In this document: piece after piece, positions 21,814 through 27,068 of the stretch
How positions within the stretch are numbered: position 1 is the stretch's first letter
How the letters are laid out: every line of letters begins with the position of its first letter
Origin: Candidatus Bathyarchaeota archaeon
GTDB taxonomy: Archaea; Thermoproteota; Bathyarchaeia; Bathyarchaeales; Bathycorpusculaceae
DNA length: 34,427 nucleotides
Assembly (NCBI GenBank): GCA_030017755.1
Contig: JASEJA010000006.1
Coordinates: 1 to 34,427 of the forward strand
Reading direction: 5' to 3'
Program-made: the position numbers and the translations under genes
The notes under the pieces: model-generated
Database searches by the model: none
What the model was told of the DNA's origin: nothing
Seen by the model: the letters and a program-made list of their open reading frames with translations, nothing else

Positions 21814-22230
21814 TTGTTAGCCCACCTTAAAGAGAAAGAGGAAAAAATTCTGCAAATTCTGGAACAATTAGCCGAAGAAAACCAAAAGGGAACACCAATA
21901 ATCGTAGAAGGGAAAAAGGACATAGGAGCGTTAAAAGCGCTTAATGTAAAAGGCAAAATAATATCAGCAAAAACAGGCGGAAAAAACCTCCTGGACATCA
22001 TTTCAGAACTGGAAAAAACCCAAACACAAAAAGCCATATTATTATTGGATTTTGACAGAAGAGGAAAAGAATTAACAAAAAACTTGGAAAAACATCTGGA
22101 AAGGATAGGAGTAAGGGTTAATCTAAAATTTTGGCGGAAACTTTTAGGGCTTGTGGGCAAAGAGTTGAAAGACGTTGAGGGTTTAGCCACATACATAGAA
22201 ACCTTAAAGAAGAAGATTTGTAATTCATAA
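21814..22230 (+). CDS. Small Toprim-domain protein
   Basis: The 138-residue protein has an N-terminal charged helix and then a single Toprim fold: PIIVEGKKDIGALKAL (catalytic-type Glu, about 34) and AILLLDFDRRGKEL (D-x-D, about 75-77). Small stand-alone archaeal Toprim proteins (UPF0292-like) are related to primase and RNase M5-type enzymes, but their activity is not established. The start is TTG. It lies between tyrS and dnaG, another Toprim protein, which supports a role in nucleic-acid metabolism. Confidence 0.85.
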   Translation: MLAHLKEKEEKILQILEQLAEENQKGTPIIVEGKKDIGALKALNVKGKIISAKTGGKNLLDIISELEKTQTQKAILLLDFDRRGKELTKNLEKHLERIGVRVNLKFWRKLLGLVGKELKDVEGLATYIETLKKKICNS

Positions 22231-22291: not shown

Positions 22292-23491
22292 GTGATTAAA
22301 ACTAACCCTTTAAACCATATCAATTGGAGGTGGACGCTTACGGGTTCATCACAAACGTTTGCCATAAAGTATGTTATACAGGCAAAATTCGAAATAGAAG
22401 GTGTAGTTGAAAAATCAGACGTTATAGGAGCAGTTTTCGGACAAACAGAAGGCCTCTTCGGACCAGAACTAGACTTAAGGGAACTACAGAAGTCAGGCAG
22501 AATTGGAAGGATAGAAATTGAATTACACTCTAAAAATGACAGAACAACAGGCACGATAATAATCCCCACAAGCCTCGACAGAGTCTCCACAGCTCTAATT
22601 GCAGCAAGCATAGAAAGCATAAACCGCGTTGGACCATGCGCATCAAAAATAACCCTAGAAAAAATCGAAGACGTAAGAGAAGCCAGAAGAAAAGTGATAA
22701 TTGACAGAGCAAAGGAGATTCTCCACAAATGGACCATTGAAACCATGCCTTCGGTGGATGAAGTCTTCAAGGAAGTTGCAGAAACGCTGAAAACAGTTAA
22801 AGTTGAAAAATACGGCTCCGAAGAGTTGTCTGCAGGACCAGAAGTCGACAGCTCTAAGGAAATAATCATTGTTGAAGGAAGGGCAGATGTGGTAAATCTG
22901 ATGCGCTGTGGAATACTTAATGTTATAGCCCTTGAAGGAGCAAAGGTTCCAGAAATAATAAAAAGATTATCAAAAGAAAAAGAAGCTACCGCTCTTCTTG
23001 ACGGAGACAGAGGAGGAGACCTAATCCTAAAAGAGCTAATGCAGGTAACAAACATAAAATATGTCGCCAGAGCCCCAAGAGGAAAAGAGGTTGAAGAGTT
23101 AAATTGTAAGGAAATATTTGAAGCATTAGAGGCGAAGGTTCCAATAGAAGAATTGCTTAAGCCACCACGAAGAGAAAAACACAAAATAGAGGTACCAAAA
23201 GAAATTGCCCAACTAACGAAAGGCTTGGAAGGAACATTAGAGGCTATTCTCTTAAATGATAAGTTGGAGCAGATAGAGCGGTTGCCAGTAAGCCAACTGG
23301 CAGAAAAACTTCAGCAAACAGAAGGCGTAAACACAGTCGTATTCGATGGAGTCATAACCCAAAGAATCGTTGATGTGGCAAGCGAGAAAAACATAAAAAA
23401 CATTATTGCCTCACGCATATCAGACGCTGTTAAGCCACCATTAAACGTCCAACTAATAACATTCTCAGATATTGAAACATCAAAGGAATAA
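22292..23491 (+). CDS. dnaG: Archaeal DnaG primase-like protein
   Basis: Archaeal DnaG has primase activity in vitro and associates with the RNA exosome. The protein has the archaeal N-terminal YVIQAKFEIEGVVEKSDVIGAVFGQTEGLF (conserved segment cut here for reference to about 27-56), a central helical region, and a Toprim domain with IIIVEGRADVVNLMRCG (Glu, about 195) and ATALLDGDRGGDL (D-x-D, about 233). It is 399 residues. The start is uncertain: GTG at 22292 gives an atypical leading segment, while a strong GGAGGTG at 22326-22332 has no in-frame ATG, GTG or TTG behind it. Confidence 0.92.
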   Translation: MIKTNPLNHINWRWTLTGSSQTFAIKYVIQAKFEIEGVVEKSDVIGAVFGQTEGLFGPELDLRELQKSGRIGRIEIELHSKNDRTTGTIIIPTSLDRVSTALIAASIESINRVGPCASKITLEKIEDVREARRKVIIDRAKEILHKWTIETMPSVDEVFKEVAETLKTVKVEKYGSEELSAGPEVDSSKEIIIVEGRADVVNLMRCGILNVIALEGAKVPEIIKRLSKEKEATALLDGDRGGDLILKELMQVTNIKYVARAPRGKEVEELNCKEIFEALEAKVPIEELLKPPRREKHKIEVPKEIAQLTKGLEGTLEAILLNDKLEQIERLPVSQLAEKLQQTEGVNTVVFDGVITQRIVDVASEKNIKNIIASRISDAVKPPLNVQLITFSDIETSKE

Positions 23492-23498
23492 AAGAAAG

Positions 23499-25886
23499 TT
23501 AAGCTCCAAAAAAGTCTGTTAGCTTCCTAGTTTCTTTTTCTTCCACTTTTGAACCAAGTAGTTCTTCTTCTGTTATGCCGAAACTTTCGAGAACTCTGGC
23601 TGCCGCGGGGGCAATCTGCTTTGACACGTAATATTCCATGTCCACATCGTCATAAGAAGCAAACATGTATGGCTTAACCCTCTCGTATAGGCGTCCAGTG
23701 CCAACAACCACAACATAGCCTATTTTGTCGCCAACAGAAAGCTTCCAGCCCTTCTCCATCAACATTTTTGCAGCTTCCACATGGGAAGCCTTAACCTCAT
23801 ATTCCTCTGGAGCCTTTGTCAAGGTCTTCCATATTATTAGGTCTCGATATGGAATGCGCTTCTGCCTCAGCTCATAAATAGTTTCTTGCACGTATTTTGC
23901 AGCCTTTTTTGGAGACTGCTCCTTCAAAACTATTTCTAAAACCCGCTCCTGCACTTTTTTGGCTATAGACGCCCAATCTCCACGAATAACCTCCAAACCG
24001 ACAATGTCAAGCTGTCCATCTGGCAAGAGACCTGCATAACGCTTTTTGGCTTCTGTAAAGAAAATGCGCATATAAACCTTGTCTGGCTTAACCTCTAAGC
24101 CTAACTTTTCTTCAATTTCCTTTGACAATTTGTCAATTTTTTCAGGCTCATGTTTTATGAAAATGCTGTCAGTATCGCCATAAACAACCTTTAACCCAGC
24201 ATTTTCAGCCATTTTAATAGCGTTCAAAATTGTGTGTCTTCCCCAGGCTGTGGCTGCTTCCGCCACGGGTTTTATGTACCATCTTGCACCGATCCAACCA
24301 GCATAACCATAAGAGGCGTTTGTAATGACTTTCACGGCTTTTTGACGAGCGTCTAATACGCGGTATTCAACGCTTCCAGCCGCGGTTTTCTTCATTTTTG
24401 AGCGAATTTCATCCCGCACTTTAATGAGATAAGAGAGAACTTCTTTGTAGAAGCCTACAGGCTCTTTTCGGAATCTGTGCTTAACTTCTGGGGCTTCGTA
24501 AAATCCGCTTTTTGGCGGGGGCTCTTTAGGCGATATGTATGTGTCTGGGGATAGGTTGTATGTTATCATAAGGTTTGGATACATGGATTTAAAGTCCAAA
24601 ACAGCAATGTTTTCATGCAAGCCAGGCTCTGGCTTAAGCACTATAGCGCCCACATATGGTCTGTAGGGCTGTTCGATTCTTTTCGGCACAAGTTCACTGA
24701 TTTTTTGTGCATGCTTTATTAAGAACCATTCCACTCGGAAACCAACAGCCGCCGTGCCCACATGGTCTATTGGTAAGCCTACAAGGTTTGAGAGTTGCAT
24801 AGCAAAATCTAATATGGCTTGGGCTATACCCATTATGCATCGTGTGTTTTCCATAGAAAATTTCTTTAAAGTTTCGCGTTTTGCTTTGTCGTCCCAGTAA
24901 TCGGCAAAATCCACATCTTCAATTAATGTTCGCTCCTCAATTTTCATAATACCTAAATAATCTGCCATGTTCTCCAAAGTTTTAACTTTAATTTCTGGAA
25001 ATTCATCAGCATAATCCAACAAGTCAATATTGGCTCTTCCAGTGATTGAAACATGCCCATAAACGCTTGTGTGTGGTTCCGTTCCAGCCCTATCAACATG
25101 CAGTCGCAATCTGAGCTTCTTACATCTCTCGTTTAGGTATGGCCAATCTTGTCCGTTTAAGCCAAAGCCAACAATAATGTCTGGGTCAAACTTTCGAACA
25201 TAATTCATGAACGCTTCTAAAATTGGCTTGTCATTTTTGTTTTCATCCGTAACAAACTGCGTTTCTTCGCCATTGTTTGTCGCCACAGAGATTATTATCA
25301 AGGGGTTTCTGTCCGGTTTTGGCGAACCTTCTCGGCTATAACATATTGTTGAGAAGCCCAAAATTCGCAAGGGTGGAACTTCGGTTTTTTCAATAAGATT
25401 TGGGTAGGATTTTGCAGTGTAAACTTTGTCAACTCGAACAGTTAAAGCGCTGCTTTCTTCTTCATCTGCTTCTATTTCGTGCCAACCGCAAGGCGCCACA
25501 TCGTTGTCTATTAGGTAGCGCATGGAATATCGAATATCATCTTCGAGGCATTCTTTAACGCCTTCGATTTTTCGAAAAGTTTTGGCATATTTTGGTATGA
25601 CATCTGGGTTTTTACAATAAACTTTTATGGCTTTCACGGGTTTTCCAAAAAACTTGCGTTCAACAACCTCAAGCCTCTCCACAAGAGGATAGTGCGCCTT
25701 CCCAATTTCTTTAACAACTTTTTCAGCATCTGCGCCTTCTACAATGACGATGTAAAAGTAATCAAGAAAATTTCTGTCAACCACGAGGATTCTTTTTCCA
25801 GATTCGTCTATGCCCCAAAGCCAAATTTCAGGCGTATCATTCTTTACTTCATAGTTTACGTCTAAAAGCCAAAACCTAGTTTTCAT
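23499..25886 (-). CDS. Family B DNA polymerase with degenerate exonuclease motifs
   Basis: The 795-residue protein is a full-length family B polymerase. Polymerase motifs are intact: motif A LDFKSMYPNL (D431), motif B KAVKVITNASYGYAG (about 516-530) and motif C YGDTDS (569-574). The proofreading domain is present in size but altered: the Exo I FDIE position reads FSTI (178-181), Exo II keeps only the Asp (GFGLNGQDWPYL), and Exo III YxxxD reads FSMEN (343-347). It should synthesise DNA but is unlikely to proofread. It is divergent from pelota, with about 100 bases between. There is no sign of an intein. Confidence 0.93.
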   Translation of the reverse strand: MKTRFWLLDVNYEVKNDTPEIWLWGIDESGKRILVVDRNFLDYFYIVIVEGADAEKVVKEIGKAHYPLVERLEVVERKFFGKPVKAIKVYCKNPDVIPKYAKTFRKIEGVKECLEDDIRYSMRYLIDNDVAPCGWHEIEADEEESSALTVRVDKVYTAKSYPNLIEKTEVPPLRILGFSTICYSREGSPKPDRNPLIIISVATNNGEETQFVTDENKNDKPILEAFMNYVRKFDPDIIVGFGLNGQDWPYLNERCKKLRLRLHVDRAGTEPHTSVYGHVSITGRANIDLLDYADEFPEIKVKTLENMADYLGIMKIEERTLIEDVDFADYWDDKAKRETLKKFSMENTRCIMGIAQAILDFAMQLSNLVGLPIDHVGTAAVGFRVEWFLIKHAQKISELVPKRIEQPYRPYVGAIVLKPEPGLHENIAVLDFKSMYPNLMITYNLSPDTYISPKEPPPKSGFYEAPEVKHRFRKEPVGFYKEVLSYLIKVRDEIRSKMKKTAAGSVEYRVLDARQKAVKVITNASYGYAGWIGARWYIKPVAEAATAWGRHTILNAIKMAENAGLKVVYGDTDSIFIKHEPEKIDKLSKEIEEKLGLEVKPDKVYMRIFFTEAKKRYAGLLPDGQLDIVGLEVIRGDWASIAKKVQERVLEIVLKEQSPKKAAKYVQETIYELRQKRIPYRDLIIWKTLTKAPEEYEVKASHVEAAKMLMEKGWKLSVGDKIGYVVVVGTGRLYERVKPYMFASYDDVDMEYYVSKQIAPAAARVLESFGITEEELLGSKVEEKETRKLTDFFGA

Positions 25887-25988: not shown

Positions 25989-27068
25989 TTGAAAATCTTA
26001 GAGATGAACTTGAAAAAGGGCATTATTAAGGTGGTGCCCGAAACGTTTGATGACTTATGGCATTTATACAACATAATTTATGAAAAGGATGAGGTTTACG
26101 CCCGCACATCCAGAGAAATAAAACCTGAAGAAGGCGGATACGCAAGACCAAAACGCGGCGAAAGAGTGTCAGTGTTTTTGGGAGTTAAAGTTGAAAGCGT
26201 CAAATGGGACAAGCTTTTAGGTAGACTTAGGGTCCACGGAAAAATTTGTGAGGCGCCAGAAATTGTGCCAACAGGCGCCAGTCACACGCTTAACATAGCC
26301 CTAAACATGCCAGTAACAATCCTGAAGAAAGAGTGGGCTAAGCATCATCTTGAAAGATTGGAACGGGCACGCAAAACACTAGACAAACCAGTAATAATCA
26401 TTGCCATAGATGATGATGGTTATGCAATAGCCACAACAGCCCAATACGGCATAGAAGTTAAGGCAGAAGAAAGCATAAGGCTTCCTGGAAAGCTAGAGGC
26501 GGAGAAAAGAGCAAATGCAACAAAAGAATATTTCAGAAAAGCACTAAATAGTCTACGCCAAATTTGGGTTGCAACCCAAGGTCCGATAGCAATTATTGGA
26601 GTTGGATTTGTAAAAAACGATTTTGCAAAATTCTTGGAAAACGAAGCCTCAGACATAGCCAAAATGGTTGTGGATGTCAAAAGCGTCAACAATGGCGGTG
26701 TGGCCGGAATATATGAAGCTTTACGTTCAGGCGTGCTGTTTAAAACTATGAAACAGCAGCGAATAATCAAAGAAACAGAATTGGTGGAGGAAATTCTGAA
26801 AAGGATTGGGAAAGGCGAAGCAAATGTTGCTTATGGAATTGACGAAGTTAAGAAAGCCGCAGAGTTAGGCGCTGTTGAAAAACTTGTCTTAACGGATGTA
26901 ATGTTGCGTGAAGCTTCAGATGAAAAAAGGTTAAGCATAGAAGATTTAATGAAAACCGTTGAGAAAAAAGGTGGAAACATAACGGTCATAAGCACGGAAC
27001 ATGAGGCCGGCATAAAGCTTATGGCTTTGGGGGGAATAGCAGCTCTACTACGCTTTGCACTACATTAG
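25989..27068 (+). CDS. pelA: Pelota (aPelota), ribosome rescue factor
   Basis: Archaeal Pelota is an eRF1-like protein that works with aEF1A/aABCE1 to split stalled ribosomes. At 359 residues it is full length. It has an N-terminal Sm-like domain (MKILEMNLKKGIIKVVPETFDDLWHLYNII, shown here as landmark only), a central domain with PVIIIAIDDDGYAIATT (about 133-149), and a C-terminal eRF1 domain 3-like segment with VEKLVLTDVML and TEHEAGIKLMALGGIAALLRF. It lacks the eRF1 GGQ motif, as expected for Pelota. TTG start. Confidence 0.94.
   Translation: MKILEMNLKKGIIKVVPETFDDLWHLYNIIYEKDEVYARTSREIKPEEGGYARPKRGERVSVFLGVKVESVKWDKLLGRLRVHGKICEAPEIVPTGASHTLNIALNMPVTILKKEWAKHHLERLERARKTLDKPVIIIAIDDDGYAIATTAQYGIEVKAEESIRLPGKLEAEKRANATKEYFRKALNSLRQIWVATQGPIAIIGVGFVKNDFAKFLENEASDIAKMVVDVKSVNNGGVAGIYEALRSGVLFKTMKQQRIIKETELVEEILKRIGKGEANVAYGIDEVKKAAELGAVEKLVLTDVMLREASDEKRLSIEDLMKTVEKKGGNITVISTEHEAGIKLMALGGIAALLRFALH

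Follow-up and report, generated by a model that had tools for sequence, protein, structure and literature searches.

An ancient clade of PolB3-type DNA polymerases in Bathyarchaeia and other Thermoproteota with an intact polymerase site and a lost exonuclease site

Introduction

Among the described archaeal family B DNA polymerases of the PolB3 group are Pfu, KOD, Tgo and Pyrobaculum calidifontis PolB (structure 5MDN), the last of which is labelled PolB3 in the available text of Kazlauskas et al. 2020 (PMC7544198). Thermococcus kodakarensis has PolD, and its B3-type PolB is dispensable and matters for the survival of DNA damage (PMC6759347). This polymerase acts on the lagging strand and is better than PolD at displacing strands and maturing Okazaki fragments, and cells tolerate an exonuclease-null form of it (D141A/E143A) encoded at the native locus (PMC13136892). 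PolB3 of Sulfolobus islandicus was also found to be non-essential and to influence damage responses (PMC8100216).

In the available text of the two main archaeal PolB surveys (PMC7544198, PMC4104785), exonuclease inactivation is described for PolB2, for eukaryotic Pol alpha and Pol zeta and for half of Pol epsilon, and PolB3 is not mentioned in this connection. A literature search, with most subscription papers outside its scope, returned no earlier report of PolB3 lacking the exonuclease site or of PolB3 function in Bathyarchaeia. Here, a polB3 gene of this kind is described from a Bathyarchaeia contig, together with its relatives; the window referred to below is the whole stretch of 34,427 nucleotides that was analysed.

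Results

The polB3 gene and its locus

The polB3 gene (23499..25886, (-) strand) starts with ATG and encodes a family B DNA polymerase of 795 aa, which matched the Pfam families DNA_pol_B (2.7e-64) and DNA_pol_B_exo1 (3.8e-25). It is flanked by a convergent gene for archaeal DnaG (dnaG, 22292..23491, (+); NCBIfam DnaG, 5.5e-143) and by a divergent pelota gene (25989..27068, (+); NCBIfam pelota, 1.1e-83), both of which are conserved marks of the locus. A convergent dnaG beside polB3 was noted for Crenarchaeota in the available text of Makarova et al. 2014 (PMC4104785). A small Toprim-domain gene (21814-22230) adjoins dnaG (22292-23491), itself a Toprim-domain gene, and this pair recurs in many Bathyarchaeia loci.

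The polymerase site was found to be intact, with motif A reading DFKSMYP (24576..24596, (-); catalytic Asp431 and steric-gate Tyr436), motif B KVITNASYG (24306..24332, (-)) and motif C YGDTDS (24165..24182, (-)). The 3'-5' exonuclease domain (residues 172-371; 24774..25373, (-)) was full length but catalytically stripped. Exo I (25344..25355, (-)) reads FSTI instead of FDIE, with Asp replaced by Ser179 and Glu by Ile181; Exo II (25146..25163, (-)) reads GLNGQD instead of NxNxFD, with Gly242 in place of Asn and Gln246 in place of Phe; and Exo III (24846..24860, (-)) reads FSMEN instead of YxxxD, with Tyr changed to Phe343 and Asp to Asn347. Consequently, three of the four metal-binding carboxylates of the exonuclease are missing (Ser179, Ile181, Asn347), and Asp247 of Exo II remains. 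The preliminary description of this DNA had reported complete motifs A, B and C, the same alterations in all three exonuclease motifs and a retained domain length; each of these statements held, and the surviving Asp247 can be added to them.

The closest solved structure was that of the exonuclease-intact P. calidifontis PolB (5MDN, E = 1e-235), the others matching at 3e-112 or weaker. Because the alignment to 5MDN contained no gap at the motifs, the exonuclease losses are not an alignment shift. Shifted but intact acidic residues, which the preliminary description had considered as a counter-argument, were rejected on the basis of this alignment and of the variability within the clade described below. 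The polymerase domain was only about 35% identical to that of PolB1 from the same genome. A model of the protein built on 36 orthologues had a mean pLDDT of 89.5 with a well-ordered exonuclease domain, and its best structural match was again 5MDN (TM 0.85/0.88); the fold is thus predicted to be intact.

The protein ends in LTDFF (23508..23522, (-)), a PCNA-interacting-peptide-like tail, and similar tails are present in most orthologues: a loose pattern detected them in 54 of 79 sequences lacking the exonuclease site and in 29 of 38 exonuclease-intact ones. Judging from this tail, the window PolB3 may bind PCNA.

Loss of the exonuclease site among relatives

The sampled orthologues came from the source genome's own family, order and class, from the phylum and from named genomes; among the latter, the close relatives were nearly all labelled Bathyarchaeota. 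Every Bathyarchaeia PolB3 examined (about 20 families) lacked the exonuclease site and kept the polymerase site, and the same was found in about a dozen other Thermoproteota families, including Candidatus Culexarchaeum. These proteins are called exo-less below. Since similar losses occurred in dozens of independent genomes, a sequencing or MAG error was ruled out as their cause.

Of 76 non-redundant members of the clade, none had an acidic residue at the Exo I Glu position or Asp at the Exo III Asp position, while Asp247 was retained in 47. The catalytic and near-catalytic polymerase positions Asp431, Tyr436, Lys519, Asn523, Asp571 and Asp573 were invariant in all 76. The four exonuclease residues were all invariant in 38 exonuclease-intact relatives; in the exo-less clade, the former catalytic positions were occupied by many different residues, as expected if the constraint is gone.

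Of 120 genomes from the class with a completeness of 90% or more and no more than 5% contamination, 50 yielded no PolB3. Nearly every genome had a single PolB3 match; one (G033) carried two genes (C108 and C120), both exo-less, by duplication or contamination. Long insertions, probably inteins, were present near residue 529 at motif B of one orthologue (L108, G052:C157; gene and insertion form a single open frame of 1294 aa) and near residues 567-574 at motif C of another (L116). An opposite kind of decay was observed in two genomes of family f37 (G252 and G267, without a PolD match), whose PolB3 proteins (L212 and L213) had damaged polymerase motifs (YADTDL, YADLTS, altered SMYP of motif A) along with damage to parts of the exonuclease.

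Origin of the exo-less clade

Trees were built without the exonuclease columns, so that the trait could not shape them. Except for two sequences near Methanomethylicota, exo-less PolB3 formed one clade (support 98 in the quick tree and 100/98 in the careful tree). A single origin of all exo-less sequences appeared in 0 of 200 bootstrap trees, and these two sequences (L101 and L170) lost the site separately. Therefore, judged from the trees, one old loss accounts for the main clade and a second, separate loss for the pair near Methanomethylicota. The deepest branching around the clade is unsure because its sister, an Asgard sequence (L105), was placed with weak support (89/32).

The order pelota-polB3-dnaG-TyrRS was identical in exonuclease-intact Thermoprotei (L088, L090, L106, L113, L116). 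This common locus and the single match per genome indicate that exo-less PolB3 is the same gene and not an extra paralogue. The placement within PolB3 and the motifs of the relatives, for which the preliminary description had proposed a tree, show that the loss is ancient and clade-wide and not peculiar to the source genome.

Selection on the two domains

In close pairs, dN/dS was 0.03-0.11 for the polymerase domain and 0.05-0.17 for the exonuclease domain; exo-less polB3 is under purifying selection. At 55-60% polymerase identity, exonuclease-domain identity was 43% in the exo-less clade versus 54% in the intact clade. Therefore, the exonuclease domain is kept in the exo-less clade, under looser constraint.

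Other polymerases in the same genomes

A survey of the source genome for other PolB and PolD, also proposed in the preliminary description, revealed a PolB1 whose exonuclease motifs (LDIE, NGDDFD, YCFRD) are intact and both subunits of PolD. The phosphoesterase motifs of DP1 are intact, and DP2 lies in fragments where contigs end. A Y-family polymerase was not detected in this genome, which is 88% complete.

Across the phylum, PolB1 was almost universal (384/397). Outside the class, PolD was present in 17 of 18 exo-less genomes versus 4 of 36 genomes with exonuclease-intact PolB3, counts that omit the two f37 genomes with damaged polymerase motifs, refer to genomes and not to independent events (about two losses underlie them) and are confounded by shared ancestry. 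A convincing PolD match was not found in one exo-less genome outside the class (G485, 99% complete), nor in two within it (G044 and G148). G044, an order relative that is 98% complete, has exo-less PolB3 and PolB1 and gave no PolD match by two models; it is either an exception or an assembly gap. Among relatives, Y-family polymerases were not lacking more often in genomes with PolB3 (Fisher p = 0.7), and hence a replacement of these usual translesion polymerases by PolB3 is not indicated.

Discussion

The protein is probably best understood as a PolB3 orthologue whose ancient clade lost proofreading a single time and kept polymerase function, and it most likely serves as a PCNA-tethered accessory polymerase. 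With three of four carboxylates gone, the window PolB3 would have no exonuclease activity, and it is presumably active as a polymerase. As an accessory enzyme, it would extend primers, also those with a mismatched or damaged end, across short patches during repair or the filling of gaps, with no excision, and would leave bulk replication and proofreading to PolB1 and to PolD with its DP1 exonuclease. Taken with the findings in T. kodakarensis and S. islandicus, this is the simplest account: an enzyme confined to short patches, with genome copying left to PolD and PolB1, would need no proofreading of its own. The loss suggests an old conversion of the enzyme to repair or to the synthesis of short patches, and the best reading is that exo-less PolB3 is dispensable. 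The preliminary description had proposed either a translesion or repair enzyme or dependence on a separate exonuclease or on PolD. PolD proved relevant, as the genome has it alongside an exonuclease-intact PolB1; that the enzyme is no longer the main replicase is more likely than that it depends on a separate exonuclease, because PolB3 was not found in so many high-quality genomes of the class.

An unlikely alternative is a lagging-strand or primer-extension polymerase resembling Pol alpha, which would extend primers or fill and displace at Okazaki fragments. Strand displacement would then be favoured by the lost exonuclease, and errors would be cleared by PolD or repair. The lagging-strand action of T. 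kodakarensis PolB (PMC13136892) and the retained PCNA-like tail speak for such a role, which, however, would have to be easily taken over in the 50 genomes where polB3 was not found. Nor does the adjacent dnaG point to a special priming link; that link was ruled out, since dnaG also flanks exonuclease-intact polB3.

A dedicated translesion extender comparable to Pol zeta or Dpo2 appears less probable still. Natural B-family extenders without proofreading exist, such as Dpo2 (PMC8764526), and the apparent lack of a Y-family polymerase would fit, but the source genome is incomplete, Y-family presence is unrelated to that of PolB3 in relatives, and no recognised damage-response genes were seen at the locus. 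It is very improbable that a cryptic exonuclease was rebuilt from Asp247 and Glu346, the acidic residue beside Asn347. Asp247 is kept in most clade members and Glu or Asp often stands just before the Asn347 position, but Asp247 itself is variable, the acidic pair of Exo I is gone without a shifted replacement, and mutating just these two residues is the standard way to make an exonuclease-null enzyme (PMC13136892). A decaying gene or MAG artefact, although the exonuclease domain evolves faster in the exo-less clade and polB3 is missing in some lineages, is refuted by full-length ORFs in dozens of genomes, the invariant polymerase site and dN/dS well below 1 in both domains, and its probability is negligible.

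The ancient, clade-wide loss of PolB3 proofreading almost only in PolD-bearing lineages amounts to an evolutionary experiment. It says that PolB3 does not have to serve as a high-fidelity replicase in the presence of PolD, and that PolB3 proofreading is generally kept where PolD was lost. The accessory role is consistent with this pattern. For annotation, it follows that Bathyarchaeia PolB3 should not be described as a proofreading replicase, and the exo-less clade makes natural exonuclease-free family B polymerases available for assay.

Comparison with known systems

With P. calidifontis PolB, Pfu, KOD and Tgo, the window protein shares the fold, the domain order, the polymerase motifs and the PCNA-like tail, and with Thermoprotei it also shares the gene neighbourhood (pelota, convergent dnaG). 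Its closest relatives are PolB3, it has motifs A, B and C in intact form and dnaG is convergent, all as in that group; known members carry intact FDIE, NxxxFD and YxxxD motifs, whereas the exo-less clade does not, and intact 3'-5' exonuclease motifs, which the window protein does not have, are usual in characterised PolB3 but do not define the group.

Archaeal PolB2/Dpo2 is, like the window PolB3, a B-family enzyme without proofreading that is second to a replicase. In the available text of PMC7544198, this group is recognised by a single Asp in motif C and a missing Exo III. One motif C Asp and most exonuclease motifs are missing from Dpo2, whereas the window protein has a complete motif C, a full-length exonuclease domain and affinity to PolB3. 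Membership in PolB2/Dpo2 was ruled out since YGDTDS is intact and the Exo III region is present, though altered.

The catalytic subunits of eukaryotic Pol alpha and Pol zeta likewise combine an active B-family polymerase, an activity presumed for the window PolB3, with an inactivated exonuclease domain. They differ in belonging to another clade and in having C-terminal zinc modules and partner subunits, which were not seen for the window PolB3; the loss is convergent. Whether a deep, previously undescribed archaeal B-family subfamily stands here as the convergent counterpart of Pol alpha and Pol zeta, having lost proofreading once in PolD-bearing Thermoproteota, kept its polymerase under selection since and been enabled to do so by the proofreading of PolD and PolB1, is a proposition to which we give even chances.
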